DNA of 64,000 bases, from contig CM045762.1 in the NCBI GenBank assembly GCA_025200525.1, positions 87,920,717 through 87,984,716 of the forward strand. The letters run 5' to 3'. The notes beneath the pieces are model-generated. The model was not told where the DNA came from. It ran no database searches and worked only from the letters and a program-made list of their open reading frames with translations. Source of the DNA: Camellia lanceoleosa (taxonomy: Eukaryota > Streptophyta > Magnoliopsida > Ericales > Theaceae). Numbering within the stretch: the first letter of the stretch is position 1; the number at the start of each line of letters is the position of its first letter. Below, piece by piece: positions 31,038 through 55,038 of this stretch. The position numbers and the translations under genes are program-made.

Positions 31038-31815
31038 TTGTAGACACCCCATTTTTGACCGCCCTTAAGACTTGGGCGCTACTGATGGCTTCTTTGGTGA
31101 TGAAAGTTGTGTAGTGCAAATGTTCGATTTCTCAGGCAAGAGGAGAGTCAAATCCTAACCTCACACCCAATTTTTGGGATAAAACTATTTTGAATGGTTT
31201 TTAGACCTTAAAACCCTCTCTTTCAAAATATTTTTGAAAAGAAGTTTCTACGATGTTCCGAGGCTCGTATTTCGTTAAATGTTGCGCTTTTTGGTAAATT
31301 GAGCAAGGACAAAGTGGAAATGAATGAAAGAGAGATGAACTCTTTGAAAAATATTTCAAAACACCTTGTTTAGGGGTTTGGTGTTGAAGAAAAGAGGAGT
31401 GGAGGGAAAAAACCTAGTTGAGGAAGAAGATGGGCATGAATCGCTAAGAGAGAGTCGAGCAGCCCTCGCTAAATCAGGCCTATCCTTTTGTATACTTGGA
31501 TTTAATCTATCAAGCCACCACCGTTGGAAATAAGACTTCTGGGGCTTCATTTTACACTCAAGAATCTCCTAAAGCCGAGTCCGGATGGGGGAGATATGGT
31601 TGGTTGAATTAGGGCATCAATCCGGTTGGACCGAAACTGAGCAGCCTTCACTAAAAGAGGGATATCTCTTAGCAAACTTGGAATTTTGAGGTGAGGCTGC
31701 CACCATTGGAAATATTACTTCTGGGGATTCATTTTAGAGACAAGAATGACCTGCAAAGGAGTCTGGATGAAGGAGTTATGCCCATTTGAAGTTGGACCTG
31801 CAGAGCAGAATTTGC

Positions 31816-31905
31816 AGTCGGCCACAAATGTGCACAGTCAGCCATGGAGATGGCCGGTCAGCCATCACAAGTAGCAGGTCGGCCCCAAAGATGGCCAGCT
31901 GGCCA
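31816..31905 (+). promoter_or_regulatory. GGCCGG/GGCC palindrome cluster 1 in B's 5' LTR
   Basis: AGTCGGCCACA, TCAGCCATGG, TGGCCGGTCAGCCAT, GGTCGGCCCC and TGGCCAGCTGGCC at about 15-25-base intervals, ending about 110 bases before the TATA box. The 3' LTR copy lies at 45,323-45,412. Confidence 0.6.
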
Positions 31906-32012
31906 AGAGTGACACAACTTCAGAATTTTTGAAGATATTTTGTCCTTCAGCTGTTTCCAGGTTGTGCCACCTGTCCTAGCTTAGATATTTTCGACCAAAT
32001 GCTTTCTTTTTG

Positions 32013-32020
32013 CTATATAT
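32013..32020 (+). promoter_or_regulatory. TATA box of B's 5' LTR
   Basis: CTATATATGAAG, followed within 60 bases by GCCTCTCTCTC, a CT-rich patch common at plant transcription starts. The expected start is near 32,045. Confidence 0.65.
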
Positions 32021-34011
32021 GAAGCTATATCTCATATATTCAAGGGGAGAAGAAAAAAACAATTTTGGGAGCCTCTCTCTCTAAAAAATTCCTCTCTCTC
32101 TAGAAATTTCAGAGCAAAATTTCAGCCCTTCTTTCTAGTTTGCTCTCTCTCTTGCCCTTTTGTGTATAGAAGTAGAGAAACATGCCTAGTTTGCCCATGC
32201 ATCCTTGATCAAAGTTGCCTATCTTTGGGAGGAGGTTGCTTGGAGTTTACTTGGGACTTTGTTTGAGCTCCAAAAGGTGATTTGAGCTCAGATTTTTGCC
32301 TGTTTTGGTGCCTGGCTTCAAGAGGTATAAACTCTCATCTATTGTATTTGTTTTGCACATTTGCTTCACCATCCTTTTTCCATTGTTTTGGGCTGTTTTT
32401 TGGGTTGGTGTTGAACTACAAAAAGGTTTGATTTTCAGTCCTAAAAATGTTGGTTTAAGCCTTGTTTGGCTAGGGGGTGTTTCCTCCTTTTTGCTCCTTA
32501 GCTTGTAAGGCCTTTTGAGCTATCTTTCAAGCTTTTGAAACAATCTTTGTTTGGCCTTTATACCACTGAAATCTAGTGGATTTTCAGTGGTAGAAAGGTG
32601 GTTTTGAGGCCCCAAATAGGAGGGGGTTGTCCCCCGCTCTCTTCTCTTGTTTACTTGTGTTGATGGCCCATCAAAAGGGCATGTATTTCTATCTTCTTGA
32701 GGCTTTGTTTGAGCACTTTTTTGTGACTTTTTAGACCTACCATGACTCTATTTTTGGTTGGTTTGGTCACCTCTTGCATGCTTCATGTACTTGTAGTGCA
32801 AATCTTGCTTACTAGCCTTGCATGCTTGATGTTTTGGCTCATTATTCTAGCTCATTTTGGCTATACTCCAGCATGCTTTTATTCATATTTTGGCATGCTT
32901 TATTTCTGTTTTGAGCCTTCTTGGTTGTATGATGCTTGTTGTGCATGCTTGTAGTGCAATAGCCTTGACTAGTTTCGAGGTTTGAGGTATCTTGCATGCT
33001 TGGCTTGAGGTATTTGCATGCTTTGGCATCATTTGGCATGGTATTTTAGAGCATATACTTCCATCATACACTTCTATATATTGCTATTTACGTGCTTTTA
33101 AGAGTTGAGCCTTATGCCTCGTTTATGAGCTAATGCATGAACATCATTTTCTTGGTTTTCATGCTATCTTCTCGGTTCATTTTAGCCATTGTTTTGGCTT
33201 GCTATAGCTTTTTTTGGGCTGGTTTAATCATTTGAGCATTGTATGGCATGCTTCTAGTGTAATGCACTTCACTAGCTTTGGCGTTCTTAGCTCTAAGCAT
33301 ATCTTGCATGCATCGTTTTCATGTTTCGATGTCATTTAGCATACTATTTCAGTGCTGGAATGTATATCGTTGCATGCCATCTTTCATTTGTTGTATCACT
33401 TTGAAAGAGGTCTTAAGCCCCTTGTTGGCTTGAGCATGGAGTTGAGGCTCCCATGCCTAATGATTTTAGCCTTCTCTTGCGGGTTTCTACTAACCAAAAG
33501 CATAAGACTTCTTCCATGCTCAAGGTGCTTGTGGCTTAGATCCTCTTTCAAAATTAGAGGGCTCTCACTTTTGGACTTAACCGGTTAAAGGGCTTATTGG
33601 TAATCTAAAATGAGTAAACAAAATGAATCAAAGTAAAACATGCTAAGATAACATGTTTGTGTTGCATTGCATGTGTTTAGATCGGACGTTAATACAAACA
33701 CAAGAAATGAGAGACGTTTCGTACTTGAAGTGATGAAACGTGCCTTATTTCTTAGTCACCGACACCCTTGATCGTGGATGATAGGGTGGAAGTTTCATCG
33801 AGTCTATTTGTGCATTCATTGACTTGTACACATTTGGCTTCCCAGCCATCGTGCATTATGATGCTCAGTTGGTGGTCCGAGAGTCGAGCACCACACTTTT
33901 TTGAGCTTGAGATATGATAAGGAGTGTGGTGGTACGCACATTTCCTTGCAAATACACTGCCATGCCTTTGTTTGTGCTCTATTGCAGCAAAAGTAGAAAT
34001 TGCAAGAAGCA

Positions 34012-34121
34012 GTGGTCGACCGGCCATCAATCTGTCGACTGGCCACCAAGGCTGCCGATCGGCTATCAGAATTGGCCGATGGCCATCAACTTTGGCCGAT
34101 GGCCATCATTCTTGGCTGACC
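34012..34121 (+). promoter_or_regulatory. GGCC palindrome cluster 2 in B's 5' LTR
   Basis: TCGACCGGCCATCAA, GTCGACTGGCCACC, GCCGATCGGC, TTGGCCGATGGCCATC twice and TTGGCTGACC. It is about 2.2 kb after cluster 1, and the 3' LTR pair has the same spacing (45,323 and 47,522). Confidence 0.55.
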
Positions 34122-34412
34122 ATCTCTCAAAATGTTCCTAAGGTGGGTCAGAAACTTTTTGGAAGTTGGCATAATTTTCAGAAGTACAAAAGTGTGCAAA
34201 CAGAGGCATCAAGAGGCACGGTAGTGGATTTCCGAGCAAAGCTGATCGAGCATACATGTCCCTCATCCTTAAGGCCATTTATCTGCTTTTGTTAACTTAG
34301 AATAAGTTAGCTATTTTATTCAAATTCGGTTTGTAATTAATTAGTTAAAGTAGTTAATTAGTTTATCTATAATAAGTAGCTTAGCTTAGCATAGCTTACC
34401 CTATTTATTCGG

Positions 34413-34446
34413 ACCCTCCGTCAAGAGGGCGAACTATTGTAATAAG
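34413..34446 (+). promoter_or_regulatory. CCCTC-loop-GAGGG hairpin with AATAAG downstream
   Basis: ACCCTCCGTCAAGAGGGC can form a 5-bp stem, followed about 10 bases later by TGTAATAAGCG. The same pair occurs at 47,924-47,955 and, reversed, at 51,409-51,427; a decayed version is at 27,213-27,235. Possible 3'-end formation signal of the LTR transcript. Confidence 0.45.
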
Positions 34447-34968
34447 CGTGCGTGTCTGTAATGCATGTCTTCTAACCCTATTTGTTTCTCCCTTTTGCTT
34501 ATCAGCTTTTGATGATTAGTTTAGGGCATCTTTCAATTAGCATACTTATGCTAGCATGTTTGCATCCATTCATCTGTCTTGCATGCACCGGGCTCGGCGC
34601 ATCATACAAACTGTATTGTATTTCAATACCAATTTGAATACATGTTATCTAGTTGCATTCACATGACATCTTATAATAGCCGAGCCTATCTTAGTTGCAT
34701 TTTGTATGTGTTGCATTAGGCATTCTTGACATAGCTAGGGTTATCCATTGATTTCTAACATAGCTTTTGTTTTGGCACAGAGTACTAGGTAAGCTTTTAC
34801 GCTTTATCATCTTGCATGTGTGTAAGTGACTGCCATGATAGCATGCTTGCCATGAGGCTAACTACTTAAGTGTTTAACTACATGAATGCCTGTAGATGAA
34901 GGCTTCATTGCTTGAATTGGAATGATTTATCAAAATGTGCGTTTTAAGCCCACTTTGAGGAGTGGCAA

Positions 34969-35208
34969 TAAGACATACCTTCTCGAGTACCTCTTTGGTA
35001 CCCAACCCATTTAAAGAAAGGATTCTGAAAAGACGGGTAACTTAGTCCCGCATAATAACGAAAGTAAATCTGTCGTGTTTGGGGGGGTTCGGCTCCGGAG
35101 CAGGAGAAAGGTTTAGATCAATAAGCGGTCGTTGCGAAGGGCCTGCGCCGCTTCCACCGCTTCTGATGGAAAGAGGCAGGTTCCCCATTGCAGACAGAAT
35201 AAAATCCA
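34969..35208. other. foreign 240-bp insertion in B's 5' LTR, possibly mitochondrial
   Basis: The reversed solo LTR reads straight from GTGGCAA to ATCATGTTTT (near 50,850-50,860, complement). In B these are separated by 240 bp of different character, with GGGGGGGTTCGGCTCCGGAG and GGGCCTGCGCCGCTTCC. The minus strand is open with MGNLPLSIRSGGSGAGPSQ and PLIDLNLSPAPEPNPP. The composition recalls plant mitochondrial open frames, so a nuclear copy of mitochondrial DNA is my best guess. I cannot search to prove it. Confidence 0.55.
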
Positions 35209-35808
35209 TCATGTTTTCTAAGCTCACTTTGAGGGTGGCAAATCCGTGTCTGAACCTACATGCAAGTAGCAACTTCAAACCATTTTCAAAAAACAAACAT
35301 GAGATGTTTTGTTCCAATTCTTACGATTGAGTCTATACTTGTATGCTGTGCGCATCACATAGTAAGCTAGCTAATAAACTGGAATAAGAACATATGTGTT
35401 TTCAACAATAACATATCATGTTAGTAGAGGCCGATCCTTTGATCGGGTGAGCGGGGGTGCTCATTTCAGGACTTTCCCCTCATGTACCCAAGTTCCCGAG
35501 CCGATGCAACTTTGGTGATGACGGACACGTGGCCTTAGGCATGAGTTAGGGTTTCCTAAATTTCCCAAAACAAAACATTTAGGTAGTGACTCTGAAATCT
35601 GGCAAAGCAGTCCATGTTTGGCACTTCTTGATTAAAATCGATTTTCCAAAACGATTTGCCGGATTTGGACTCTTTGGTGATTTATCAGTCTTACATTGCA
35701 CTTTGTGAGATTAGATTCAGAACCGTGACAGGAGTCCAAACTGTAGTAGCTAAGAACTACAATCCGCGCCCTCGCGCGCAGAGCGGAGTTCGGGCGGTCT
35801 ATAGTTTT

Positions 35809-35826
35809 TGGCGACTCTGCTGGGGA
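35809..35826 (+). other. primer-binding site of B
   Basis: TGGCGACTCTGCTGGGGA directly after the LTR resembles the tRNA-Arg-complementary site known from Ogre elements (from memory). It marks where minus-strand DNA synthesis starts. Confidence 0.75.
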
Positions 35827-36627
35827 TTTTGAGAACTTGACTCGAACTCATGATATGTTGTTTTATCTACACTTATGTGTTTCTTTGCATTGCATTTGCA
35901 TTGGTACGCCTAAGTCACAGTGTTTGCCATTAGCTATTCCTGAACGGTCTGCCGGAGGCTTGCTTTGAGAAGCGTGCCATAAGACTGACCGGTTACGGGC
36001 TCTGCCACGATGGGAGCACAAACCTTGATTTTTACCGAGGCACCCTTTTCGACCATTCGACCTAGTTGCATATCGGAAGCCATAGTGACCATTCCAAACT
36101 AGGACAGGTTGCTTACCCGATTGTAGGTTGTTTGAAACCGCTGTGTGCGTAGTGAAACCCTAGCTCCTGACAAGATAGGACAGGGAAACCCTGCCCCACC
36201 ATAGGGGTGTTTTGGCTTTTACTTGTGTGGTATGTGCTATTAGGGTGTGTCTCTATAGGATGGTATGTATTAGTTGCAAGTTTGAGTATCGGCCTGAGGG
36301 TATCAGTTTACAAGCAGAATTTTGGACATAATTCAGTAAAGAGTGTAGTCATTCAGTTGTGCTCATATCTGTTTTGGTGAAATCAGGCTGAGATGCTGTC
36401 TGTTTTCTCTTTTGCAAGGTAGTTTTGGAACCATAGCTTCAGAAGGGTCCAACATCCCCCGAGTACACGAAACTTGTGTTGATAGACTTTGTCAGGTTAG
36501 AGATTCAATTCAGGGGCAACCAGTGTTTCCCTTGCTGAGGCAAGGAAACAAAGGCCAGTCAGGGCTCACCAGTTTGACTAATCCGACAATCACCAGTCAC
36601 ATCACCTTTGTTCAAACTCAGCAGACC
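35827..36627 (+). other. leader between primer-binding site and gag of B
   Basis: No coding domain. GGACAGGGAAACCCTGCCCC (36,181) is a near-palindrome also present in A (27,408). The frame of gag stays open back to 36,412 but has no ATG before 36,628 and the homologous part of A is full of stops, so I treat it as untranslated. Confidence 0.6.
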
Positions 36628-37746
36628 ATGATGGAACAGGGTTCAGAAGAAGTTGTGGCCATGGTAGCAGCATTAAATCAGGGAACTACTATGAAAGATG
36701 AGACCAATGCTGAAACGCAACGCCCATCTGGGGTATCTGCCACACATCTAGTCTCGGGACCCCAGCTGAACGTTGACCCACTTCCACCAGCCGAAGATTT
36801 GCAGGGTCCAGATTCTCGAGAAGGGTTGGCTCAAGCTCGAGTTTTCAGACCCCTGGTGCAGCTTAAGGAGAGGCTTTATTCCCTTGATATTAATGAGCTC
36901 GACCCAACCTCATTAAAAATTGCTAACCTTGAGAAGCAATTCAAAAAGGCACAGGGCCTTAACTCCATTCCCGACATTGAGGATGGGTACCTCGAGGTTG
37001 CCATACGACTCCCAGATAGATTCAAAATGCCATATATTGACTGTTTCGACGGGTTTGGAGATCCTATGGTACATATCTGGCTTTTCTTGGATGTCCTGAA
37101 GCCGATGGGTCTGACTAAGCCACATAAACTCTCTCTGTATGGAAGAACCCTGTCGGGTGTAGCAACCACTTGGTACGCTAAGTTGGAGGATAAAGTGAAG
37201 CAAAACTGGGAAGAACTGGTTGAGGCCTTTGTTGATCAGTATTCTTACAATACCCAAGTTGAAATAACCACTCAAGACCTAGAAACTACCCACCAGAGTC
37301 CTACAGAGCCTTTCGTGGAATTTGTTGCGAGGTGGAGAGCAAAGGCAGCACAGATGACAAATCGCCTTTCTGAAAGGGATCAAGTGCAGATAGTTGTGCA
37401 AAACCTCGAGCATGAGATGTTGCAAAAGTTGATAGTCGCTCCACTATTCACTTTCAAAAGTTTGCATGAACTGGGGGTTCAGGTCGAGAATGCATTCAAC
37501 AGTGGGATCATTCCCAGAACAAGTGAACCGATAAGGAGGGTTTTTGCAGGGAGTACCAATGTTGGTAGTAGCACTATTTCCGAACTCACTAGAATCAATA
37601 CAGTCGCCACAGTTGACCCTTTTGCCAAACCAAGCCTACAAATAGCTGGCCCGACTCGAGCTCAGGGTAGAACTTTCACCTCTCTATATGAGCCTAACCA
37701 GCGCACTAAAAGTCTTGATGGAAAGAGGGTATCTCAAACCCCTTGA
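36628..37746 (+). CDS. gag: gag polyprotein of element B (372 residues)
   Basis: The longest intact frame in the window. I chose ATG 36,628 (MMEQGSEEVVAMVAALNQGT) because the homologous region of A begins at the matching place; the frame upstream has no ATG. Residues 1-130 are low-complexity spacer. About 140-290 is the retrotransposon gag (capsid) domain, with FDGFGDPMVHIWLFLDVLKP, SLYGRTLSGVATTWYAKLED and WEELVEAFVDQYSYN, then RWRAKAAQMTNRLSERDQVQ and QNLEHEMLQKLIVAPLFTF. The stop at 37,744 comes before the zinc-knuckle region, which follows in other frames, so the protein is shorter than a full Tat gag. It would assemble the virus-like particle in the cytoplasm. Expression and function are unknown; in a nested non-autonomous element it may merely not have decayed yet. 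Confidence 0.85.
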   Translation: MMEQGSEEVVAMVAALNQGTTMKDETNAETQRPSGVSATHLVSGPQLNVDPLPPAEDLQGPDSREGLAQARVFRPLVQLKERLYSLDINELDPTSLKIANLEKQFKKAQGLNSIPDIEDGYLEVAIRLPDRFKMPYIDCFDGFGDPMVHIWLFLDVLKPMGLTKPHKLSLYGRTLSGVATTWYAKLEDKVKQNWEELVEAFVDQYSYNTQVEITTQDLETTHQSPTEPFVEFVARWRAKAAQMTNRLSERDQVQIVVQNLEHEMLQKLIVAPLFTFKSLHELGVQVENAFNSGIIPRTSEPIRRVFAGSTNVGSSTISELTRINTVATVDPFAKPSLQIAGPTRAQGRTFTSLYEPNQRTKSLDGKRVSQTP

Positions 37747-38660
37747 TCCTCAACCTCTACCTGACCCACTCTCTACCAGACATAACCCCTCCAAATACTA
37801 CATGTATCATCAGTAGTGTGGTCATGGCACCAATCGTTGCTACCGCCTTCGTCATGAGGTCCAGAATCTCATCAACAACTGGAAGATAGCTCCACCTCCA
37901 GACCCCAATGACTAAATATCTCCTTCCTACCTCAACCTCATCCATACACAACCATCCGGTTACAACTCGAGTATATACATCACCCCGGTCCATCTACCCA
38001 AGCGCGAGGTGTTCGTTCCAATCAACATGGACTTATGCATGATGAATGCACCTGAACCCCAATCATCTCAAACCCGTGAACCCTCGGCAACGTGAAGGCA
38101 AGTGGTAAGAACAAGGTAGGGGCAGGCATTGGTCCCCATGAACACCTTCAGTGGGCTGTTGAGGCTCTGAAAGTCGAGGGACTGGACAAATAGCAAGTGC
38201 TGGCAGTTGTTGCAAAGACTTGGATGACACCTTTGCTACTCAGAATGAGAGCAGTTTGAATCAATGGGCAAGTCGAAAAAAGGGATGTTGTTCTAGAAGT
38301 GTTCCTTTCAGCTCTAATCCTGTACTCGGAAGAGATCAGCAAACCCAGTCAGCGCCTACCAATCCTTTTGCTGGTACATCCAGCAAAACTCCACAAACCT
38401 CGAAGTACCCACCCCGAGGCCAGAGGGTCTTCAATCCCTTTTACATGACTTTGTCCAAAGCTTTCTAAATCCTTATAGGACAAGGCCATCTCAAGCCCCT
38501 GGAGCCGCGACCATTACCAAATAAGCTTCCTCTCTCCCATAACCCGGCTAAGTACTGTGCCTTCCATCAATAAGCCGGCCATGACACTGACATGTGTTTT
38601 CGTTTTTGCCATGAAATACAAGATCTGATTGATAAAGAGGTCATTGTCGCGCCAGGTCTT
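37747..38660 (+). pseudogene. gag C-terminal region of B, duplicated and broken
   Basis: Two copies of the same gag tail occur one after the other. Copy 1 (about 37,750-38,090): KYYMYHQ, stop, CGHGTNRCYRLRHEVQNLI, then YITPVHLPKREVFV. Copy 2 (about 38,360-38,660): NPFAGTSSKTPQTSK, FNPFYMTLSKAF, KYCAFHQ, stop, AGHDTDMCFRFCHEIQDLID. The segment C-x-x-H...GH-x-T-x-x-C is the knuckle-like motif of Tat gags. A has only one copy, so B underwent a partial tandem duplication or was formed by template switching. Confidence 0.7.
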
Positions 38661-39302
38661 GCAAATTCTATTGGCACTGAGTCTGTGAACTTGGGGGATA
38701 ATGTGATCATTTGATCGGGGGATGAACTAGCTGCCGATGGCACTCATTTTACTCCGAATGTGGGGATGGCACGCACTATTTTGAGAAATGTGCAAATGCT
38801 GTTTATTTTATTTTCTGACTTGGGTATCGGGTCAGTTTTGTTGTGTTGTATTGTATTGTGTCACCCTTTTTGTATTGAGTCAATTGTGTCTATCATGTTG
38901 TATCAAGTCAGTCCTGTTGTGTCAAAGTCGCGTGATTTCGGGGGTGTTACCTCGGACATCACTGTCTTTTTGTGTTTATCTTTTACACTCTTTCTTTTGA
39001 GTCTGTTTCTGCCATGAGGCCAGTTGCACTTGAAGATTTGAATGAAACAGCAGTGATTTTCGCACTTCTGAGTTTGTTTCTGCCTTGAAGCCAATTGTGC
39101 TAGAAGATTTGAATGAAACGGAAGTGCTTTTTACCTACTTTTTGGTGCCTTGAAATCGTTGCATTGACTTGAGTTTTTCAAAACTTTTTGAACACTGTGA
39201 TGAAAACAAAGAGGAAGGAATTGCTCGGGATTTGTAAAAATTTGATCATTTGAGAGAAAGAGAGACATGCTAAGCCCTTAATGAATGAGATCATGCTTGT
39301 TA
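38661..39302 (+). other. gag-pol linker of B, protease missing
   Basis: GGGGATAATGTGATCATTTGATCGGGG (read from 38,696) matches GGGGATAGTGTTACTATCTTTGTGATCGGGG of A (48,436), so sequence equal to A's protease and GLGYEP segment was removed between gag tail and this linker. Two tandem copies of CTGAGTTTGTTTCTGCC / GAGTCTGTTTCTGCC with GAAGATTTGAATGAAAC (38,998-39,120) are seen. No domain. Confidence 0.55.
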
Positions 39303-39530
39303 ACGTGAGTACTAAGAAGGATCCTGGCTTGATCTAGATTGGTTCTACACTGTTTTCAGCGCGAGCGATTTGTCGCTTTCTTAAAAGATTTCAAAAAATG
39401 TTTTGCGTGGTCTTACGAAGACCTGTGTGGAATCACTCTTGAGATTGTGCAGCATAGGATCGCTCTCAGCCTTGAGACTCAACCCCTTTTGCTTTCAAAC
39501 TTTGAACTTGGATTCAGAATGTTCAAAGGT
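39303..39530 (+). pseudogene. start of RT of B, truncated
   Basis: ERFVAFLKDFKKCFAWSYED and then EIVQHRIALSLETQP match ERLIALLKDFKDVFAWSYVD and EIVQHRIPLDSKARP of A (48,970-49,110). The catalytic part of RT, both RNases H and most of integrase are absent from B. Confidence 0.8.
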
Positions 39531-39739
39531 CAACCATAATGTAAGGCTTGTATGGCCAGATCAGAAGCAAACCTTGGACTAGGGGCAAGAAGGTCATATA
39601 TGATCAAAAGAAAGCTTGCAAAGCTGGATGAGAAGCAGCCCTTGAACTAGGAGCAAAAAATGTCAGATGTGCTCGAAGAGTTAAAAATTGGGACATTTCT
39701 CAAGCTAATGAAGATCAACAAGAATGCCAAATCCCAGAA

Positions 39740-39910
39740 GGGAGGAAAGAAGAAAGTATTGCTGAAGGACAATTGAGTTCCTATCTACAACACTGGGGGT
39801 AATTCAGACCCTGCTGGATGGACTCCTACATCATCATTGAACAACAACCATTCTCCTAGATTCAGATGGCTTCAAGATCCTAAAACCATTCGACATCGAC
39901 AGGTTACACT
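39740..39910 (+). pseudogene. integrase C-terminal remnant of B
   Basis: VLLKDN-like AAGGACAATTGAGTTCC, FRPCWMDSYIII and the equivalent of DLDG (39,867) correspond to FQPNWTGPYIIKS and DLDGLE at the integrase end of A (55,950-56,070). It marks the 3' edge of the internal deletion. Confidence 0.65.
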
Positions 39911-39968
39911 TTTCTACCCTTGAGAGGCTCGCTGGGCCGAAAACCCGGAAAGGCGACCCAAGCAAAAG

Positions 39969-40125
39969 TTAGAGCAAAGAAAAGAAAAAAAGAAAAAGAA
40001 AAAGAAAAAAAATGAAGTAAATGAAAGATGAAAAGAAAAGAAAATGAAAAAATGCAAAGAAAAAAACAAAAGAAGATGAAAAGAAAGAAGAAAAAAAAAA
40101 GAAAAGAATTGAAAAGAAAAGAAGA
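39969..40125. repeat. purine (GAAAA)n tract
   Basis: Almost pure A/G on the plus strand. It separates two copies of the module GAAAACCCGG...CAAAAGTTAGAGC (39,940 and 40,145); A has the same two modules (56,150 and 56,230) with a much shorter purine spacer. Confidence 0.85.
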
Positions 40126-40221
40126 ACATAGCTCGCAAGGTTGAAAACCCGGAAGGGCGGCCTTGGCAAAAGTTAGAGCGCAAAAGGAGAGGTTAATACC
40201 CGAGTGTACCTTAACCCGGAA

Positions 40222-40258
40222 CTACGTCAGGCTTGATTCCCATTTTCGGGATACGTAG
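40222..40258 (+). other. CTACGT...ACGTAG hairpin, B copy 1
   Basis: CTACGT pairs with ACGTAG, and inside, ATTCCC pairs with GGGAT. It lies about 0.3 kb after the end of pol. Related copies: 44,367-44,402, 56,306-56,343 and 63,542-63,577. Confidence 0.7.
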
Positions 40259-40810
40259 GCAACTTCATTCTGAAGTCCAGCCATAAACACTTCAAATTCA
40301 ACTGTCCTGTCTATGAGATTGAACGGGTCATCATTGTTGTTTTTATATCCAAGAGTTTGGTTGTGATCGTCACTTTGAGGACTTATTACAGTGCGCTGTG
40401 GTATCATTCAAACAAGGGGCAACTTTCCGTAGCTGTGTAGTGTCATTTGGGCAAGGGCAATTTTCCATTGTTTTGGATCTGAGGTTGTGCATCTCAAGAG
40501 TAAATTCTGTGTTGGTCGAGGAGTGACCATTTGTAAAAATAGTTTTTGAGAATTTTTAATGAGGTTGACTAATTTTCTCTCGAAAATTATTCTATTTTTC
40601 CAAAACTGGACCATTTCTTGGACCCGAAAAAGGAAAATTTTAGTGTTCATAGCCTGACTTGCATGATTTCAAATCAAAAAGTTGAACAAGTATGTTAATC
40701 TAACTCTCATATTGGTCAAAATTGTTTTAGTAGAAAGCCAAAACAAAAAATGGTCAAAATGATGAACTATGGGCACAATTGAGTTAGGCTTCCTGTCTTT
40801 TCCCCGTTGT

Positions 40811-40876
40811 CAATGCATTTGCCTGAAAGGGCACCATACTTGTCGGAAAGGGCACTGTATTTGCCAGAAAGGGCAC
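40811..40876 (+). repeat. three 25-bp units GCCNGAAAGGGCAC
   Basis: TTGCCTGAAAGGGCACC, TTGTCGGAAAGGGCACT and TTGCCAGAAAGGGCACA in tandem. A has a single unit (56,921). Confidence 0.8.
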
Positions 40877-42064
40877 AACAGAAGGTAACAACAAAGGGTT
40901 GAAAGCTCTTTCATCCTCAAAGCAGTGAGGTATCAAGCTAAGTGCGAATCACAGACTGGAATGGATCAAGATATTCCACTCCCTCATCTGGACAGGTCTG
41001 ATCACATCCGAGTTAGCCAAGCGCATCATCAACCGATGTTAGTTGTTGATCTGCTGCACATCCAGTCGCACCACAACCCCTTTGCGGGAGAAGCTCACTG
41101 TTCTGAGCGGAAGAATAAAAATCTAGCAGAATGCTAGGGGCAAGAGCTTGCAACTTCGTACTTATCCATCAACCACCCAGGGGAGGGATTAAAAAAAAAA
41201 AAAGAAGAGAGATTGAAGAATAGAGAGATGTGCGTGGAGAGAAAAGTGAAAAAATGGCTTTTCAGAAAAATAGAGATTGAGTGCCAGAGTGATGTGAGTA
41301 TCACAAATGAGAAAGGGTGGGAAGCACTACCCGAAGAAACTGGCTCTTTGTGAACTGAGAAGTCTCCCACTGGTGGTATACATCCGAGTGTTGTGTTTGT
41401 TGTTTTTGTTTGTTTCGATTCTTGTTTTGAGTCGTTTTGAGTGTCAATAGATGTGTTTAGGTTGTTTACCTTGTCTTTCCTCTTTGTTGAGTCGTTTTGG
41501 CTGTGGTCAGTCGTAGGCTCAATACCCAGTTTAGAACTCATTTCTTGATTTCATTTCAAAAAGGAATCGTTTTGTGCTCAGAGTGCTATGCCATTCTCCA
41601 CGTATGTGCAAAACAGGATCCTTTCTTTCATGAACTGTAGGGTTCAACCCAAGTCATGTGAGAATAGTAGAACAAGGACCTATTTGAAGCTATATAGGTC
41701 TGGACTGCAAATCAAAAGAAAAGAGGGAAAATTTGGAGCATCTTAGTGTGTTTCAACTCCAGCAAATTCCAAGATTGCATTCTAGGTGCATCTTGTTAGG
41801 CCTCGCCTTTCTCTGGAGTATGAGTGTATCTCGACCCCAAGCTTAAGCCTGCTTCAAGTTAGAATGGAAATTAAAGCAGTAGCAGATGTTATCTCTCTCC
41901 AATATGAACAGGGTGTACCCTTTTGAGCTGAGTATGTTGCAAAGTCCTCTGAGAGGTAAATTAGAGGCACCGAAGTACATATTTGATGCCGCTCTCTTGA
42001 ATAGAATATGCATTTTCATATACACTTCTGTTGCATGTGTGCCGCGCATCGTTCATGATTCTTG

Positions 42065-43150
42065 CATATAATATGCTTTCAGTGTAGCATAGAATATGCT
42101 TTCAATGTTGCATAGAATATGCTTTCAATATTGCATAGAATGTGCTTTCAAAGTTGCATAGAATATGCCTACTTCATGCATAGAAAATGCACTCTTCCAT
42201 ACTTGCATAGAAAATGCTCGTATCTTTTGCATAGAAAATGCTCATATCTCTTGCATAGAAAATGCATTCTTCCTCATTTGCATAGAAAATGCATTTTATT
42301 GCACTTTCTTGTGCATTTTATCTCACTCGCACTGTCTTGTGCACTTACACTTTGTGTCTCACTCGTGCTTTCTTGTGCATCACACTATCATGTGCATTCT
42401 TTGGTCTGTGAGACCTTAAAATCCTGCATTTACACTCACACTGTTTAGCGCATCGCATTGTTTACTGCATTTCAAATCATTCATGCTGTTCAGCGATTGC
42501 ACTATCTAATGCATTTCAAATCACTCGTGCTTTCTTGCGCGTCGCACTATTTTGTGCAGTTTACACTCGCACTTTCTTGCGCATCGCGCTGTTTTGTGCA
42601 GTTTACACTCGTGCTTTTATGTGCATCGCACTTTCTTGTGCACTTGTGCTTTCTTGCGCATCGCACTATTTTGTGCAGTTTATTACTCGCGTTTTCTTGC
42701 GCATTGCACTATCTTGTGCCTTTCATTACATGCTCTTATCTTGCATAGAAAAGGCTTGTAGCACTTGTTAGTGCATTGCATCGTGCTATCTTGCGCACCT
42801 CACCTGCACATGTTAGTGCATTGCTCGCATTGTTTTGCGTACCTTTCTTGCACCTGTTAGTGCATTGCTCGCGCTGTTTAGCGCACCTTTCCTGCACCTG
42901 TTAGTGCATTGCTTGCGCTGTTTCGCGCACCTTTCCTGCACTTGTTAGTGCATTGCATCGTGCTGTTTTGCGCACTTTACCTACACTTGTTAGTGCATTG
43001 TATCGCACTGTCTTGTGCACAACCCTACATAGCACTGTCTTGTGCACCTGTTTAGCACTGTCTTGTGCATTTCAACTTGCATCGCACTGACTTGTGTACC
43101 TGCATTGCACTGTTTTGTGCATCTTGTTTTTTTTTTTTTTTGCGCATTGC
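42065..43150 (+). repeat. array of short hairpins GCAT...ATGC / GCAC...GTGC in B
   Basis: Several dozen 13-14-base units, each a 4-bp stem with a 5-6-base loop. The first block (42,065-42,300) is GCATAGAAAATGC with flanks TT; the second is GCACTGTCTTGTGC, GCGCTGTTTAGCGC, GCACCTGTTAGTGC, GTGCTTTCTTGCGC and similar. Stem bases vary together (GCAC/GTGC, GCGC/GCGC, GCAT/ATGC) or through G.T pairs; a minority are mismatched. The Cys-rich frames in all three plus-strand phases come from this array. Confidence 0.85.
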
Positions 43151-44366
43151 AGCATCTTGTTGTCTTGTTTATGCTCTTATATACGCATTCACTTGCCTTG
43201 TCTTGTGCACTCACTGGTCTAGGAGACCTTAAATCCTCTAAAGGTGCAATTCCTTTGGTGTTTGTCGTGCCGAAACAACTTCCAGTGGTCTGGTATATCC
43301 ACCTGTCCGTGTTTGCGGTGAGTTCCTAGGCGATCAATTGAGATGGTAGAAACTAGAGTTTGAATGGCTCATGCCTAGAACGCAAAGGTTTGGGATTTCC
43401 GAGACTAAAGTTTGGTTTAAATACCCAGGGGTGTATCCTCAGCTTGAAATCTGTATGGCAGCCCCATAGATTGAGATAGCATATGTATGCGCCTTAATTC
43501 TGGATATTGAATTAACCTAGTCTGTCACCCTGTTGGAGAATAGGGAAAGCTGCGACCATAGTCAGGGAGAAAAGTAGTACCTGTGGTTCGGAAATGCAAG
43601 ATGCAGAAGAGGAAGATCCCTAGCAGCATAAGGTGAGTCATTGCCGATTGCCCCTGTAAGGTACTTTCGAGAGCATCGCTTCCTAGCTGCATCATCGTAT
43701 CTATCATAAGTGTTGCATAACATCTATCACATTGCATATAGTATCTATCGCATGCATTTACTGCATTGTCCGTTGCATCATGCATCATTTCCATGTTAAG
43801 CTTAGTCTGGCATGTGCCCATACTTTTCATGTTAAAGCATGGTTCTGTGATTTTGTGTACGTGCCTATTCCACTAAGAGAATTGTGGTCTGAGGGTGTCG
43901 GCACCTTTTCTGTGTTAGACGTGGTCTGTTTTGTGTCTATGCCTTTTCTAGGCAAAATGTGGTTTGGCCGTGTGCCTTATTCACTTCATCCATTGCATCC
44001 ATTGCATTGTAATTTGTTTTGTTGCATTCAGCATGTAGGATCACGATCTTTCCTTAGCAGATCATTCCTCACTTATATCATCCCATCCAATTACTTGTAT
44101 TCTTTCTGCGAAACACATAGTTCTGCATGTGCATGCACCTATTCCACTAAGATAATTGTGGTTAGAATGCTCCGGCACCGTTTCTATGTTAAACGTAGTT
44201 TGGTTTTGCATCTCCATTCCTTTGTGATATTTGTGTGGTTTTGTACTGCTTATGGTTTGATGATTCACTTACATTGCATATCATTTGCATTGTTTTCATT
44301 ACATTGTATATCATTTACATTGTTTTGTTTTGTTATATTGTGTATCATTTGCATTCCGCCCCTGAA
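43151..44366 (+). other. rest of B 3' region, scattered hairpins
   Basis: No gene. From about 43,795 looser units recur: CATGTTAAAGCATGG, CTATGTTAAACGTAG and TTCCACTAAGANAATTGTGG twice (43,868 and 44,132), with GTGCC before and GCACC after; each can fold into a small hairpin. This matches the position of the 39-bp array in A. Confidence 0.55.
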
Positions 44367-44402
44367 CTACGCTAGTTTGATTTTTTGCAAAAGGATACGT
44401 AG
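44367..44402 (+). other. CTACG...CGTAG hairpin, B copy 2
   Basis: CTACGCTAGTTTGATT and GGATACGTAG, 130 bases before the polypurine tract. A weaker version of 40,222-40,258. Confidence 0.6.
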
Positions 44403-44530
44403 GTAGCCTGTGGGCCTAACCATTTATTTATCTGCATTTTGTTTGTTTGTCCAAGTCTTCGGCCTTGTCAAAAATGGGTCGTCTCTGGGCTTTGACATTC
44501 ACTCACGTCACTTCATGACTCTGAGCTCTG

Positions 44531-44545
44531 TCAAAGAGGGGCAAC
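44531..44545 (+). other. polypurine tract of B
   Basis: CAAAGAGGGGCAAC directly before the LTR start TGTAGACACC; primes plus-strand synthesis. A has CAAAAAGGGGTAAC at the matching place. Confidence 0.8.
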
Positions 44546-47500
44546 TGTAGACACCCCATTTTTGACCGCCCTTAAGACTTGGGCGCTACTGATGGCTTCT
44601 TTGGTGATGAAAGTTGTGCAATGCAAATGTTCGATTTTTTCGGCAAGAGGAGAGTCAAATCCTAACCTCACACCCCATTTTTGGGCTAAAACTATTTTGA
44701 ATGGTTTTTAGACCTTAAAACCCTCTCTTTCAAAATATTTTTGAAAAGAAGTTTCTACGATGTTCCGAGGCTCGTATTTCGTTAAATGTTGCGCTTTTTG
44801 GTAAATCGAGCAAGGACAAAGTGGAAATGAATGAAAGAGAGATGAAATCTTTGAAAAATATTTCAAAACACCTTGTTTAGGGGTTTGGTGTTGAAGAAAA
44901 GAGGAGTGGAGGGAAGAAACCTAGTTTAGGAAGAAGATGGGCATGAATCGCTAAGAGAGAGTCGAGCAGCCCTCGCTAAATCAAGCCTATCCTTTTGTAT
45001 ACTTGGATTTAATCTATCAGACCACCACCGTTGGAAATAAGACTTCTGGGGCTTCATTTTACACTCAAGAATCTCCTAAAGCCGAGTCCGGATGGAGGAG
45101 ATATGGTTGGTTGAATTAGGGCATCAATTCGGTTGGACCGAAACTGAGCAGTCTCCACTAAAAGAGGGATATCTCTTAGCAAACTTGGAATTTTGAGGTG
45201 AGGCTACCACCATTGGAAATATTAGTTCTGGGAATTCATTTTAGAGACAAAAATGACCTGCAAAGGAGTCTGGATGAAGGAGCTATGCCCATTTGAAGTT
45301 GGACCTGCAGAGCAGAATTTGCAGTCGGCCAGAAATGTGCACAGTCGGCCATGGAGATGGCCGGTCGGCCATCACAAGTAGCAGGTCGGCCCCAAAGATG
45401 GCCGGCTGGCCAAGAGTGACACAACTTCAGAATTTTTGAAGATATTTTGTCCTTCAGCTGTTTCTAGGTTGTGCCACCTGTCCTAGCTTAGATATTTTCG
45501 ACCAAATGCTTTCTTTTTGCTATATATGAAGCTATATCTCATATATTCAAGGGGAGAAGAAAAAAAATCAAATTTGGGAGCCTCTCTCTCTAAAAAATTC
45601 CTCTCTCTAGAAATTTCAGAGCAAAATTTCAGCCCTTCTCTCTAGTTTGCTCTCTCTCTTGCCCTTTTGTGTATAGAAGTAGAGAAACATGCCTAGTTTG
45701 CCCATGCATCCTTGATCAAAGTTGCCTATCTTTGGGAGGAGGTTGCTTGGAGTTTACTTGGGACTTTGTTTGAGCTCCAAAAGGTGATTTGAGCTCAGAT
45801 TTTTGCCTGTTTTGGTGCCTGGCTTCAAGAGGTATAAACTCTCCTCTTTTGTATTTGTTTTGCACATTTGCTTCACCGTCATTTTTCCATTGTTTTGGGC
45901 TATTTTTTTGGGTTGGTGTTGAACTACAAAAAGGGCTGATTTTCAGTCCTAAAAATGTTGGTTTAAGCCTTGTTTGGCTAGGGGGTGTTTCCTCCCTTTT
46001 ACTCTATAGCTTGTAAGGCCTTTTGAGCTATCTTTCAAGCTTTTGAAACAATCTTTGTTTGGCCTTTATACCACCGAAATCCAATGGATTTTCAGTGGTA
46101 GAAAGGTAGTTTTGAGGCCCCAAATAGGAGGGGGTTGTCCCCTATTCTCTTCTCTTGTTTACTCGTGTTGATGGCCCATCAAAAGGGCATGTATTTCTAT
46201 CTTCTTAAGGCTTTGTTTGAGCACTTTTTTTGTGACTTTTTAGACCTGCCTTGACTCTGTTTTTGGCTGGTTTGGTCACCTCTTGCATGCTTCATGTACT
46301 TGTAGTGCAAATCTTGCTTACTAGCCTTGCATGCTTGATGTTTTGGCTCATTATTCTAGCTCATTTTGGCTATACTCCAGCATGCTTTTATTCATATTTT
46401 GGCATGCTTTAGCTCTGTTTTGAGCCTTCTTGGTTGTATGATGCTTGTTGTGCATGCTTGTAGTGCAATAGCCTTGATTAGTTTTGAGTTTTGAGGTATC
46501 TTGCATGCTTGGCTTGAGGTATTTGCATGCTTTGGCATCATTTGGCATGGTATTTTAGAGCAGATACTTCCATCATACACTCCTATATATTGCTCTTTAC
46601 GTGCTTTTAAGAGTTGAGCCTTATGCCTCGTTTATGAGCCAATGCATAAACATCATTTTCTTGCTTTTCATGCTATCTTCTCGGTTCATTTTAGCCACTG
46701 TTTTGGCCTGTTGTAGCTCTATTTTAGGATGGTTTAATCATTTGAGCATTGTATGGCATGCTTCTAGTGTAATGCACTTCACTAGCTTTGGCGTTCTTAG
46801 CTCTAAGCATATCTTACATGCATCGTTTTCATGTTTCGATGTCATTTAGCATACTATTTTAGTGCTGGAATGTACATCATTGCATGCCATCTTTCATTTG
46901 TTGTATCACTTTGAAAGAGGTCTTAAGCCCCTTGTTGGCTTGAGCATGGAGTTAAGGCTCCCATGCCTAATGATTTTAGCCTTCTCTTGCGGGTTTCTAC
47001 TAACCAAAAGCATGAGACTTCTTCCATGCTCAAGGTGCTTGTGGCTTCGATCCTCTTTCAAAATTAGAGGGCTCTCACTTTTGGACTTAACCGGTTAAAG
47101 GGCTTATTGGTAATCTAAAATGAGTAAACAAAATGAATCAAAGTAAAACATGCTAAGATAACATGTTTGTGTTGCATTGCATGTGTTTAGATCGGACGTT
47201 AATACAAACACAAGAAATGAGAGACGTTTCGTACTTGAAGTGATGAAACGTGCCTTATTTCTTAGTCACCGACACCCTTGATCGTGGATGATAGGGTGGA
47301 AGTTTCATCGAGTCTATTTGTGCATTCATTGACTTGTACACATTTGGCTTCCCAGCCATCGTGCATTGTGATGCCCGGTTGGTGGTTTGAGAGTCGAGCA
47401 CCACACTCCTTTGAGCTTGAGATATGATAAGGAGTGTAGTGGTACACACGTTTTCTTGCAAATACACTGCCGTGCCTCTGTTTGTGCTCTATTGCAGCAA

Positions 47501-47979
47501 AAGGAGAAATTGCAGGAAGCAGTGGTCGGCCGGCCATCAAATTTGTCGACCAGCCACGAAGGCTGCCGATCGGCTATCAGAATTGGCCGATGGCCATCAA
47601 CTTTGGCCGATGACCATCCCTCTTGGCTGACCATCTCTCAACATGTTCCTAAGGTGGGTCAGAAACTTTTTGGAAGTTGGCATAATTTTCAGAAGTACAA
47701 AAGTGTGCAAACAGAGGCATCATGTGGCACGGTAGTGGATTTCCGAGCGAAGCCGATCGAGCATGCATGTCCCTCATCCTTGAGGCCATTTACTTGCTTT
47801 TGTTAACTTAGAATAAGTTAGCTATTTTATTCAAATTCGATTTGTAATTAATTAGCTAAAGTAGTTAATTAGTTTATCTGTAATAAGTAGCTTAGCTTAG
47901 CATAGCTTAGCCTATTTATTCGAACCCTCCGTCGAGAGGGCGAATTGTTGTAATAAGCGTGCGTGTGTGTGATGCGTGT
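44546..47979 (+). mobile_element. 3' LTR of B, truncated
   Basis: Nearly identical to 31,039-34,475, with a few scattered substitutions and small indels. Identity stops after GTGATGCGTGT, where the 5' LTR continues CTTCTAACCC but this one runs into A's pol. The missing 1.3 kb includes the LTR 3' end and the second target-site copy. TATA box at 45,520. Confidence 0.88.
45520..45528 (+). promoter_or_regulatory. TATA box of B's 3' LTR
   Basis: Same CTATATATGAAG as in the 5' LTR. It would transcribe outward into A's pol remnants. Confidence 0.55.
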
Positions 47980-50257: not shown

Positions 50258-51369
50258 TGTAGACTGCCCGAACTCGCTCCGCGCGCTCCCCATTTGGAGA
50301 GGGCGTGAATTTTGTTCTAGCTACTACAGTTCAGACTCCTGTCATGGTTCTGAATCTAGTCTCACAAAGTGCAATGTAAGACTGATAAATCACCGAAGAG
50401 TCCAAATCCGGCAAATCATTTTGGAAAACGGATTTTAATAAAAAAAAGTGCCAAACATGGACTGCTTTGACAGATTTCAAAGTCGCCACCTAAATATTTT
50501 ATTTTCGGGAAATTTAGGAAACCCTGACTCGTGCCTAAGGCCACATGTCCGTTATCACCAAAGTTGCCTCGGCTCGGGAACTTGGGTACGAGGGGGGAAG
50601 GTCATGAAATGAGCATCCCCCCTTGCCCGATCAAAGATCAGCCTCTACTAACATGATATGTTGTTTTTGAAAATACATGTGTTCTTATTCCGGTTTATTA
50701 GCTAACTTACTACGTGATGCGCACAACATACAAGTCTAGACTAGATCACCTAAATTGGAACAAAACAATTCAAAGTTTGTTTTTTTCAAAAATGGTTTGA
50801 AGATGCTACTTGCCAGTAGGCTAAAATGCGGATTTGCCACCAAAAAAGGTGGGCTTAAAACATGATGATTTGCCACTTCAAGTAGGCTTAAAACTCACAT
50901 TTTGATGAATTGTTCCAATTTAAGTAATGAAGCCTTCATCTACAAGCATTGATGCAGTTATATCATTTAAGCAAATAGCCTCATGGCAAGCATGCTAAAC
51001 ATGGCAATCACTTACACGCATGCAAGGATGCTAAAGCATAAACACTCACAGTGTACTCCATGCCAAAACAGAAGCTAGTTAGTAATCAATGCATGATCCT
51101 AACTATGTTAAGTGCCTAATGCAACACATACAAAATGCAACTAAATAGGCTCAGCTATCTAAAATGGCATATGAATGCAACTTGATAACATGTATTCAAA
51201 TAGGTGTTGAAATACGATGCAGTTTGAATGATGCACCGAGCTCGGTGCATGCAATACGAATGAATGATGCAGACATGCATAGCATAAGGTATGCTAATTG
51301 AAATATGCCCTAGTCTAACCACCAAAAGCAGATAAATAAAAGGGAGAAAGACGTGAGGTTGGAAAACAT

Positions 51370-51393
51370 GCACACACACACACACACGCACAC
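51370..51393. repeat. (CA)n microsatellite in solo LTR
   Basis: Short CA run, matching GCGTGCGTGTCTGT in B's LTR, from which it probably expanded. Confidence 0.85.
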
Positions 51394-53800
51394 TTATTAC
51401 AACATTTGCCCTCTCGACGAAGGGTCCGAATAAAAGGCAAGCTAATCTAAGCTAAGCTAAGCAACTAATCTAATAATCTAATTAGACTAATTATTACACA
51501 ACCAAATTGAATAATAAGCAATCTGCTTACTAATTATTACATCACTTCAACTACTTAACAAATTAGCTAATTAAATTACAAATTGAGGCTAACTAACAAG
51601 TAAGCATTAAACCAAGTTGCTCCATCTCTACTCGAAGAAGTAAAAGATGCATGCTCGGTTTCTGCCCCGAAAAGCTCTCTGGTTTGCTCTCTTGAGGCTC
51701 TGTTTGTAGGGTGTCTCCAAGAACCTTCTGCTGAATCTTACCAAAACAATGCTGGAGAGTGCACCAGTGGCCTGCTGGCCATGAAAGGTGGCTGCTGGCC
51801 ACCTGCCGGCCAAGAGTGGGCCTCTACCGGCCAAGGATGGAAAGGTGCCAGCCATCAATGTGGCACTGCCACCCACTGGTGTGCTGTGACACCATTCTGT
51901 AACAGAGCACAAAAACAGAAGAAATGAAGGGTCTCCCTAGGGTATGTATGTACTGTGCCACCCCATATCACCTCAAAACATCAAGGGAGAGGCATCATTG
52001 GATCCAAGACCATCAATCAAGCATGCAATGCTTGATGGCCAAAGATCCAATCTTGTACACATTCAATGAATGCAATGCAAACAAGACTCTAAGACCATGG
52101 CCTTATCATGAGAGGTCAAAGGCAATGGAGGCAAAGGGGATTGGCTCACTTTCATCACTTTGAGTATCAAGTGGACCAATCCACCTCGTGTTCAACATAA
52201 CATCTGGTTGAACACGATACAATGCACACAAACAACATGCGAATCTTGGCATGAAACACGAGACTTTAACACACAAACAACGTATATACAACATGTTAAG
52301 AGAGTTAAGCGTAAAAAAACTAGCAAAAGATACAACACTAGGACCATGCAATACAATGCTCAATAGACAGAACCAGCCCCAAACAGTCCTCATCCATGCC
52401 AAAATAGTGGCTGAAATGTGATGAAACTTAAGCACAAGAAGCAAGAAAAGCATGCTAAAGTTATGGCTCGTCAACAAGGCATGAAACTCAGCTCTCAAAC
52501 ACAATTAATGAGTGATATACATGAGAGTATGTCAAGGCTATATGCTCTGAAATAATATGTTAAATGATGCCATATCACATAAACATCGCAAATAAGGCAT
52601 GCTAGAGGGCTTAAAGCATAAGGCTAGCAAAGGGCTCTACACAAGAGGCATGCAATACATAGCACAAATGACCAAACCAACAATGGACAGACCTCAACCA
52701 TGCCAAAACAAAGGCCAAAACATGCTGAAATGGTAGCCCACAAACTTAGACAAGCATGCATACATATTAGCTTATAAACAAGGCATAAGTCACATCTCTC
52801 AAAAGCATTAAAAGAGTAGAACATGTGAGAGTGTGACTACACTATACACACTGAAATCAAGTAAGAAATGAGGCTAAGGCATGCAATCATCACATTCAAA
52901 GCATGCTAGAGATCCCAAACACAAAGCTAGTGAAGTCCAACTACACTATAGCTATACAAAGCTAAGCATATATGACCAAGACCACTTAAAATAGACCTTA
53001 AGCATGCTAAATCAGTGGCAAAAATATGCTGGAGCAAAGCTAACACATGCTAGAATGATGAACCATAAGCGTGAAGCATGTTAGGCCAACAAGCATGATT
53101 GCACTACAAGTACCAAAAGCATGCAAGAGGTGACCAAACCATGCCAAAACAGAGTTATGGCAGGTCCAAAAGGTTATAAAAACATGCTCAAACTGAGCCT
53201 CGAAAGGGTAGAAACACATGTTCATTGATAGGTTAATCAACACAAGCTAGCAAGATACAAAAGGGGGGGACCACCCCCACCTATTTTGGGTCTCAAAACC
53301 CACTTTCCACCACTGAAATTCCTCTAGAATTCAGTGGTGAAAAGGATAAACAAAGGTGATCTCAAAGGCCTTAAAGGATAGCTCAGAGCAAGGCAAAATA
53401 AGGCACAAAAGGGGGTAAACCCCCCCTAACTCAAACAAGGCCTCAAACAAACATCTTAAACACTTAAAAACAAAATTTTTTGTACTTGAGAGTAAGGCCT
53501 AAAAGAGCATGCAAGGATGGCCAAATACTTAAGCAAAACAAAGCTTAAAGAGGATAACTACTCACCCTTGAAGAACCACAGCAAAACAGTAACTTTTGAG
53601 GTAAAAACCAGCTTTTTAGAACCCAAGTATGACCTCCAAGAACCTCAGCTCAATGATGGTGGTGTTTTACTAGGTGTTTGTGTACAAAAGTATGAAGAAA
53701 CAATACTTTTGAGTCAATATATATATATAGAAATATAGAGAGAGAGTAAATTTTTGTTCTCCAAAAGTTCTAAACCCTAGAGAAGGGAGAGGCACCTCCC

Positions 53801-54272: not shown

Positions 54273-54442
54273 CTAGCTCATTGGTTGCTTTTTCTCTCTG
54301 AATTTGACCTTAAGTATGTCACTTGCAAGTTGGTCAAAGGAAAGTAGAATTTTTGGCAGGCCACCTAGTGGAAGGAGAGAAAGAAGTAGAGTACCTATTC
54401 CCAGATGAGAAGATCCTACAGGTAGAAGAGGAGACGTAGAAA
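54273..54442 (+). pseudogene. RNase H of element A, 3' part
   Basis: LAHWLLFLSEFDLKYVTCKL continues the frame of 50,252, then GHLVEGEKEVEYLFPDEKIL leads to the second RNase H with a TAG at 54,439. Confidence 0.8.
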
Positions 54443-54733: not shown

Positions 54734-55038
54734 CATTTACATACTTGCTAAGTGAGAACAATAGGTTTATTCATGCACTAGCAACTCCATCCTCTATGGG
54801 AGACATACCAATTGGGGTTAAGATAAGTCTGATTATCATTGAATATAAGTGTGGTTCCACTTATGAGATAATAGTCGCAATAGACGAGGTTCAAGACCCC
54901 CCTTAGTATCATGACATTTGTAACTTTCTAGAGAAGGATGAGTATCCACCAGGGGCAAATGCCAAGGATAAATGGGGAATACGACATCTAGCCATCTGGT
55001 TCATCATATGTGGAGGAACGTTATACAAAATAGGACAT

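Follow-up and report, generated by a model that had tools for sequence, protein, structure and literature searches.

Does a dense row of short hairpins persist in a retrotransposon because its structure is of use, or because a palindromic unit was copied many times over? The question is raised by a 64,000-nucleotide stretch of Camellia lanceoleosa (the window), plant DNA with nested Ty3/gypsy elements, two of which, A and B, carry arrays of short repeated units ahead of their 3′ LTRs. An initial annotation had proposed that it is structure, and not sequence, that is maintained in both. We confirmed that the array of B is real and that its hairpins are denser than chance, also beyond mere repetition for 32 of its 43 units. 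As a whole, however, it looks like an array grown by copying rather than a structure demonstrably kept by selection.

Element B and its array

Element B (31039–47979) appears to sit inside A, between the gag and RT of the latter, since B aligns with A on both sides (B 37004–38065 with A 28284–29379, and B from 39112 with A from 48737); no clear target-site duplication was seen around B by eye. The domains of A found 3′ of B are RT (49218), RNaseH (49898), RVT_3 (54440–54730, a second RNaseH-like domain) and integrase (54907–55569). Also within A, at about 50260–53484, there is an inverted fragment, made up of LTR and 5′ sequence, of a third element that resembles B. The gag of B has 81 homologues, 72 of which carry a source name, Camellia in all 72; the best-scoring one shows 76% identity at 86% query coverage. 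Further downstream, homology to the start of RT (39112–39467) is followed, from 39715, by homology to the post-integrase sequence of A. Searches of B by tblastn with the RT, RH, aRH and INT pieces of A found none of this core, the lone trace being an aRH stretch (E = 0.80) in the deletion zone. Lacking the RT–RNaseH–integrase core, B is, as judged from its sequence, a non-autonomous element. By eye, no primer binding site starting TGG was found in B after 34468. The purine run ahead of the 3′ LTR is the presumed polypurine tract (PPT).

The domain order in A is RT, RH, RVT_3 and INT, with RVT_3 taken as aRH by interpretation; according to the accessible part of PMC6317226, the order RT, RH, aRH, INT belongs to the Ogre and Retand clades, and in 57% of Ogre elements an additional ORF encodes a plant mobile domain. 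An antisense plant-mobile-domain piece (PF10536, 60615–60842, E = 5.5e-10) lies in the region between pol and the 3′ LTR of A. The six antisense ORF pieces of A that were scanned gave this domain (E = 5.5e-10 and 0.07), DUF6141 (E = 0.063) or nothing, and a further antisense piece, at 62362–62949, had no domain match; B is without the stretch that corresponds to the plant-mobile-domain region. Because the aRH-bearing part is missing from B, its lineage is placed by homology to A, with which it is assigned through gag, the flanks and the PPT region. On this footing B is provisionally classed as a Ty3/gypsy element of the Tat lineage, and it is probably Ogre-like.

Table 1 Coordinates of the features of elements A and B in the window
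Feature	Position	Strand	Remarks
5′ LTR of B	31039–34468	+	96.4% identity (3306/3428 aligned) with 44546–47979; begins TGTAGACACC
gag ORF of B, 465 aa	36349–37746	+	Pfam Retrotrans_gag, E = 3.4e-09
Deletion zone of B	39112–39715	+	Based on a blastn comparison of B with A and on tblastn with four domain pieces of A
Type I sub-array of B	42064–42292	+	10 units, GCATA-GAA-TATGC / GCAT-AGAAA-ATGC; starts 22–27 bp apart
Type II sub-array of B	42301–43120	+	33 units, GCRC-N6-GYGC; starts 17–56 bp apart
Stray decayed type I unit	42743–42755	+	GCATAGAAAAGGC; within the type II sub-array
Degenerate copies in B of the 39-bp unit of A	43788–43815, 43945–43968, 44102–44129, 44176–44206	+	
Presumed polypurine tract of B	44533–44545	+	AAAGAGGGG + CAAC, ahead of the 3′ LTR; read from the sequence
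3′ LTR of B	44546–47979	+	Pair of 31039–34468
gag homologue of A	27662–28960		46% amino-acid identity with the gag of B
Array of A	62370–62949	+	15 units of 39 bp (stem-GAA-stem)

The array of B comprises 43 units, 10 of type I and 33 of type II, between the pol remnant and the PPT. Dozens of 13–14-nt units had been reported here, and they are present: the proposed pattern, GCRY-N5/6-RYGC, starts at 34 places within 42065–43150, although one of the examples given for it, GTGCTTTCTTGCGC, departs from that very pattern. The array had also been placed between the integrase end and the PPT, which is right in so far as its flank is homologous to the post-integrase sequence of A, but B itself has no integrase. 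Type I units 1–5 have 5-bp stems with a GAA or TAA loop (one stem has a G·T pair), units 6–10 read GCATAGAAAATGC with the fifth pair gone, and the unit positions leave no space for an overlooked unit in this row. For type II, 41 matches to GCRCTNTYTTGYGC were obtained at up to four mismatches of which the 33 with up to three make up the set used here; the counts leave out one decayed unit, noticed by eye near 42484. Type II is partly organized in two-unit repeats of 42 bp and 44 bp, in which the spacers were copied together with the hairpins. Two blocks of such repeats alternate between subtypes alpha (mostly GYGC…GCGC) and beta (mostly GCAC…GTGC). Tandem Repeats Finder (TRF) returned 12 rows for the array, whose periods span 17–120 bp, and B has the tandem repeats between pol and the 3′ LTR by which a hypervariable 3′UTR array is recognized.

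The arrays of A and B had been described as lying at matching places. Both do lie between pol and the PPT, but by alignment the counterpart of the array of A is elsewhere in B, at 43764–44202. With the array of A masked, four of the five top matches of a 15-unit nhmmer model of A in the window fell in B 43788–44206 (E = 0.00035 for the best and 0.022–0.11 for the other three), and in blastn pieces of B 43592–44202 aligned with A 62062–62949 (E = 6.7e-05 and 4.9e-04). The array of B lies between B 41847 and 43592, whose equivalents in A, 61979 and 62062, are 83 bases apart. Since weak, degenerate homologues of the A unit are found downstream of the array of B, the two arrays are neighbours and not counterparts. 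Array sequence differs between the two related elements compared, A and B. Other features of the window include a single GCATG-GAA-CATGC hairpin in A (62189–62201), which is like type I of B (the second-best match outside the array, E = 0.32), and a second array of A at 62950–63400, with a period of ~105 bp and stem-GAG/GAA-stem motifs, some weakly like the 39-bp unit. An insertion of ~170 bp at the PPT/LTR junction of A (63714–63892) resembles copies near 5714–5870 and 7037–7206 and looks like a small dispersed element. A low-complexity GTG-rich tract at 2067–2765 has strong GC skew and overlapping long minus-strand ORFs.

Hairpin excess and stem pairing

Comparison with shuffled sequence bore out a high hairpin density in B: GCRY-N5/6-RYGC occurs 34 times, compared with 2.9 ± 1.5 in dinucleotide shuffles and 6.0 ± 2.2 and 7.7 ± 2.3 in shuffles keeping three- and four-letter words, and none of 200 shuffles in any of the three sets reached 34. 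Perfect 4-bp stems with 5–6-nt loops were likewise in excess (30 versus 9.9 ± 2.8), whereas 6-bp stems tolerating G·T pairs were not (8 versus 9.4). When the 64 kb were divided into 255 half-overlapping 500-base sections, the top five for hairpin excess all lay in 41751–43250. Outside the array, too, 4-bp stems can outnumber those of dinucleotide shuffles, as in the 5′ LTR of B (72 versus 60.4, reached by 5 of 200) and in 43160–44540 (30 versus 21.8, 0 of 200); gag and 41000–42060 show no such surplus.

Because plain shuffles break up repeats, nulls that keep them were also used, on six copies of the 44-bp, five of the 42-bp and ten of the type I repeat, 21 copies that hold 32 of the 43 units. 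Permuting columns identically across copies, which does not preserve dinucleotides, left 9.3 ± 3.2 hairpins against 26 observed (0 of 1,000). By repeat set, this gave P < 0.001 (44 bp), 0.019 (42 bp) and 0.055 (type I) for 4-bp stems, and P < 0.001, 1.0 and 0.005, respectively, for 5-bp stems. When the consensus was dinucleotide-shuffled and then repeated, P was 0.006–0.033 for the type II units and 0.25–0.53 for type I; the common descent of the 42- and 44-bp units makes the joint result (20 versus 7.5, 0 of 1,000) an overstatement. None of the five consensus units of A and B had a longest perfect stem beyond chance level (P = 0.16–0.89), and consensus fold energy was below that of shuffles in the 44-bp unit (P = 0.020) but not in the other four (P = 0.21–0.38). 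For comparison, 11 arrays of the window were scored as controls; the stem P came to 0.014 in one and 0.062 in another, and fold energy had P < 0.05 in three. As these controls score alike, single units of A and B are ordinary among minisatellites on both measures.

The array of A gave no comparable excess over nulls that keep the repeats. Its 4-bp stems, G·T pairs allowed, do exceed plain dinucleotide shuffles (25 versus 16.2, 0 of 200), but there is no excess over column-permuted repeats (P = 0.12 and 0.48 for Watson–Crick stems, 0.48 and 0.21 with G·T), and stem pairing is at the permuted level (84 versus 82.0 of 90 cells, P = 0.17). The stem columns of A are the more variable ones (0.31 and 0.17 transitions per cell versus 0.08 and 0.05 elsewhere), with 43 transitions and one transversion in stems compared with 26 and 28 outside. 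At three sites CG became TG or CA, never TA, and CTG/CAG triplets stand at the outer stem, for which reason we interpret the stem changes, mostly CpG/CHG, as probable cytosine methylation decay. As a sign of selection for pairing, the 25 G·T against 5 A·C cells in A were set aside, since arm permutation gives nearly the same numbers (27.1 and 7.0) and the stem changes are transitions, mostly CpG/CHG.

The stems of B had been said to change together, with imperfect ones mostly G·T. In the 33 type II units, 124 of 132 cells are paired, 111 by Watson–Crick and 13 by G·T pairs, and the remainder are seven A·C and one other, so the statement on imperfect pairs is true, though the effect is weak. 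When the right arms were re-dealt among the 33 units, 102.7 Watson–Crick cells (P = 0.002) and, with G·T included, 120.3 cells (P = 0.009) were expected; with the 25 distinct units, P rose to 0.02 and 0.07. A covariation count on the distinct rows found 92.0% paired versus 89.6%, a level reached by 33 of 500 shuffles, and changes on both sides in one of the four stem pairs. The Watson–Crick fraction is 0.84 within a unit, 0.73 between an arm and the next unit, and 0.82 and 0.80 with the unit after next; this good pairing with the unit after next and poor pairing with the next reflects two alternating founders. When arms were permuted within alpha, beta and the rest, 111 Watson–Crick cells stood against 109.9 (P = 0.245) and, including G·T, 124 paired cells against 123.9 (P = 0.655). 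As no excess is left within subtypes, the covariation is one double change between them (A–T versus G–C at the third pair) plus the difference between types I and II, and no independent compensatory changes were found among the copies within the single array of B. Together, these results show that the two alternating subtypes explain the concerted change of the stems.

Persistence and origin of the hairpins

Statements on selection are based here on copies inside one array, with one copy each of A and B. Differences per column in the 44- and 42-bp repeats of type II are 0.15 and 0.14 in arms, 0.18 and 0.18 in loops and 0.22 and 0.22 in spacers, so that the hairpins are no better conserved than the spacers (P = 0.22 and 0.19, respectively). 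In type I, by contrast, arms diverge by 0.08 per column (0.03 in the last six units) and spacers by 0.56 (0.50), a difference with P < 0.0001 for all ten units and P = 0.0003 for the last six. The spacers of type I units 1–4 have plainly been copied; those of units 5–10 show hardly more similarity than shuffled sequence does (P = 0.03), in an alignment that is gapped and uncertain. The type I hairpins that outlast their spacers are the best sign that something may keep or re-copy the hairpin. The view that structure is what is maintained thus finds a footing in type I (P ≤ 0.0003) but not in type II (P = 0.19–0.22) and, with the covariation gone within subtypes, it is not supported for the array at large. 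In type II, moreover, an unpaired A after the right arm, a column outside the motif by which units were chosen, is invariant in 31 of 33 units, and the first and fifth loop T, both of which belong to that motif, in 30 and 31. Unpaired columns fixed as firmly as the stem count against a pure structure reading.

Folding of the RNA gave a mixed picture. Compared with shuffles, plus-strand pieces 42296–42720 and 42750–43130 had z-scores of −3.82 and −3.53, and the latter, the single piece folded on both strands, reached −3.69 in antisense; folds of the type I region (42062–42300, z = −1.24) and of the array of A (z = −1.51) were unremarkable. In the minimum-energy folds the mini-hairpins are mixed with pairing between units. 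A search of 41000–44600 against Rfam gave no match above threshold, the lone match reaching 20.6 bits where the gathering score is 100 (E = 0.65).

We favour, with a probability of about 0.63, the reading that this is a hypervariable 3′UTR tandem array of a non-autonomous Tat (Ogre-like) element, its palindromic unit multiplied by copying. A short palindromic unit would have arisen in the 3′ untranslated region of B and have been multiplied by unequal duplication, most likely through strand transfer and slippage in reverse transcription, with unit pairs duplicated later; the palindrome itself may have helped, in that a hairpin in the template could make the copying enzyme pause and jump. The location, the TRF periods, the copied spacers, the subtype-bound covariation and the type II hairpins that vary as much as their spacers argue for copying, as do the first four type I spacers and the unpaired flanking column as fixed as the stem. 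We infer from these that copying built the array and that no function dependent on pairing is at work. Against plain duplication stand the ten consecutive type I hairpins, kept while, after the fourth unit, the spacers diverge in both sequence and length; the hairpin excess over repeat-preserving nulls, the better pairing within a unit than with the next, and the lean in A to changes that keep plus-strand pairing (25 G·T against 5 A·C) also speak against the copying explanation.

A rival reading is a selected RNA module, in which many hairpins of the genomic RNA would act together, for example in docking Gag or a host RNA-binding protein. Such a module would serve a non-autonomous element that needs packaging in the particles of a partner, as B, without RT to INT, might, and the hairpin excess over repeat-preserving nulls, the conserved type I hairpins and the two plus-strand folds (z = −3.8 and −3.5) are in its favour. 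We nevertheless consider it unlikely, given that covariation is absent inside subtypes with double changes in one of four pairs, that the antisense fold of the one piece tested on both strands is equally strong, that the type I region folds weakly, that the stems measure 4–5 bp, that type I and type II loops are wholly different, and that the array of A is at the level of the repeat-preserving nulls and has an unremarkable fold. Its more specific form, a multi-copy docking platform by which the mini-hairpins of an Ogre-like non-autonomous element boost RNA capture into the particles of an autonomous partner, is a long shot; if true, array size and hairpin count, not sequence, would decide transposition success. 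Paired stems could also arise and persist without selection if a polymerase or reverse transcriptase switched template in quasi-palindromes, so that both arms are perfected in one step or the loop is inverted. The process is documented (PMC8794818, in its accessible part, has template switching able to create and repair hairpin arms), and the between-subtype double changes are compatible with single events. The loops offer a hint: in a list of perfect stems drawn up blind to the loop, all nine type I loops are purine-rich (ATAAT, AGAAT, AGAAA), whereas no type II loop has a purine majority, all being pyrimidine-rich or even. At the border of the types (42253–42345), the unit after a loop AGAAA has the loop TTTCTT, which is the reverse complement of AGAAA with one T added; the last type I and first type II units have a common right flank, ATTTTAT. 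The seemingly reverse-complementary loops are a lead only, as the match may be due to composition (P = 0.40 for AGAAA, 0.012 for TAGAAAA and 0.66 for GAA against letter-shuffled loops). Within type II the loop-blind list holds no inverted loops; the motif-picked list fixes loop letters, and inverted type II loops would escape it. We regard template switching as quite unlikely to be the main cause. Least probable of all is that the units are DNA dyads bound by a dimeric protein, for instance one encoded antisense in the element or one supplied by the host: the short spaced dyads with their conserved flanking A and the antisense plant-mobile-domain piece of A would fit, but the stretch carrying that piece is absent from B, the spacing is irregular (17–56 bp) and the half-sites vary at their middle positions.

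Relation to known arrays

Protein searches for relatives of the array with two translated stretches gave nothing significant among 9 and 57 candidates, and a gag-based scan of viral contigs found no copies of it. One viral-contig match to the DNA pattern was dismissed as chance, no array being present in the 221 of 1,833 bases examined. Among the top matches listed from literature outside subscription, none described a hairpin array in a plant LTR element. The tandem arrays that Tat elements carry in their 3′ tails are a source of plant satellite DNA. With its palindromic unit, hairpins outlasting spacers in one sub-array and seemingly inverted loops between two, B offers a concrete test case, for which hairpins that make the copying enzyme jump and hairpins kept for use predict different things.

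According to the available portion of PMC7004042, such arrays are common in Tat elements; it cites Macas 2009 for hypervariable 3′UTR tandem repeats of Tat/Ogre elements, as well as a proposal that strand transfer within the particle can be abnormal. The array of B resembles these in lineage, place and monomers that differ between elements; it differs in that its monomers hold 13–14-bp palindromes and its spacers vary in length, and neither ‘hairpin’ nor ‘palindrom’ occurs in the main text of that paper as available. In PMC11963269, as far as available, roughly half of the recent Retand elements, those of Camellia included, carry arrays, whose origin and function that paper gives as unknown. 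Like that of B, these lie between POL and the 3′ LTR, Camellia clusters included, and occur in non-autonomous copies, with repeats of 8–100 bp as a further likeness; Retand LTRs measure 315–1,194 bp, compared with 3.4 kb in B. In the main text of the same portion, ‘hairpin’ is absent and ‘palindrom’ appears in a reference alone. Gmr9/GmOgre, a soybean Ogre, carries minisatellites between the coding region and the 3′ LTR, as does B, with a function described as unknown in the accessible part of PMC3305785, the main text of which has no occurrence of hairpin, palindrome or stem-loop. The repetitive hairpin elements of sponge mitochondria (PMC2800124, as far as available) are mitochondrial and outside retrotransposons, and a common origin is not implied; like the array of B, they comprise many short hairpins that are also copied in larger blocks.
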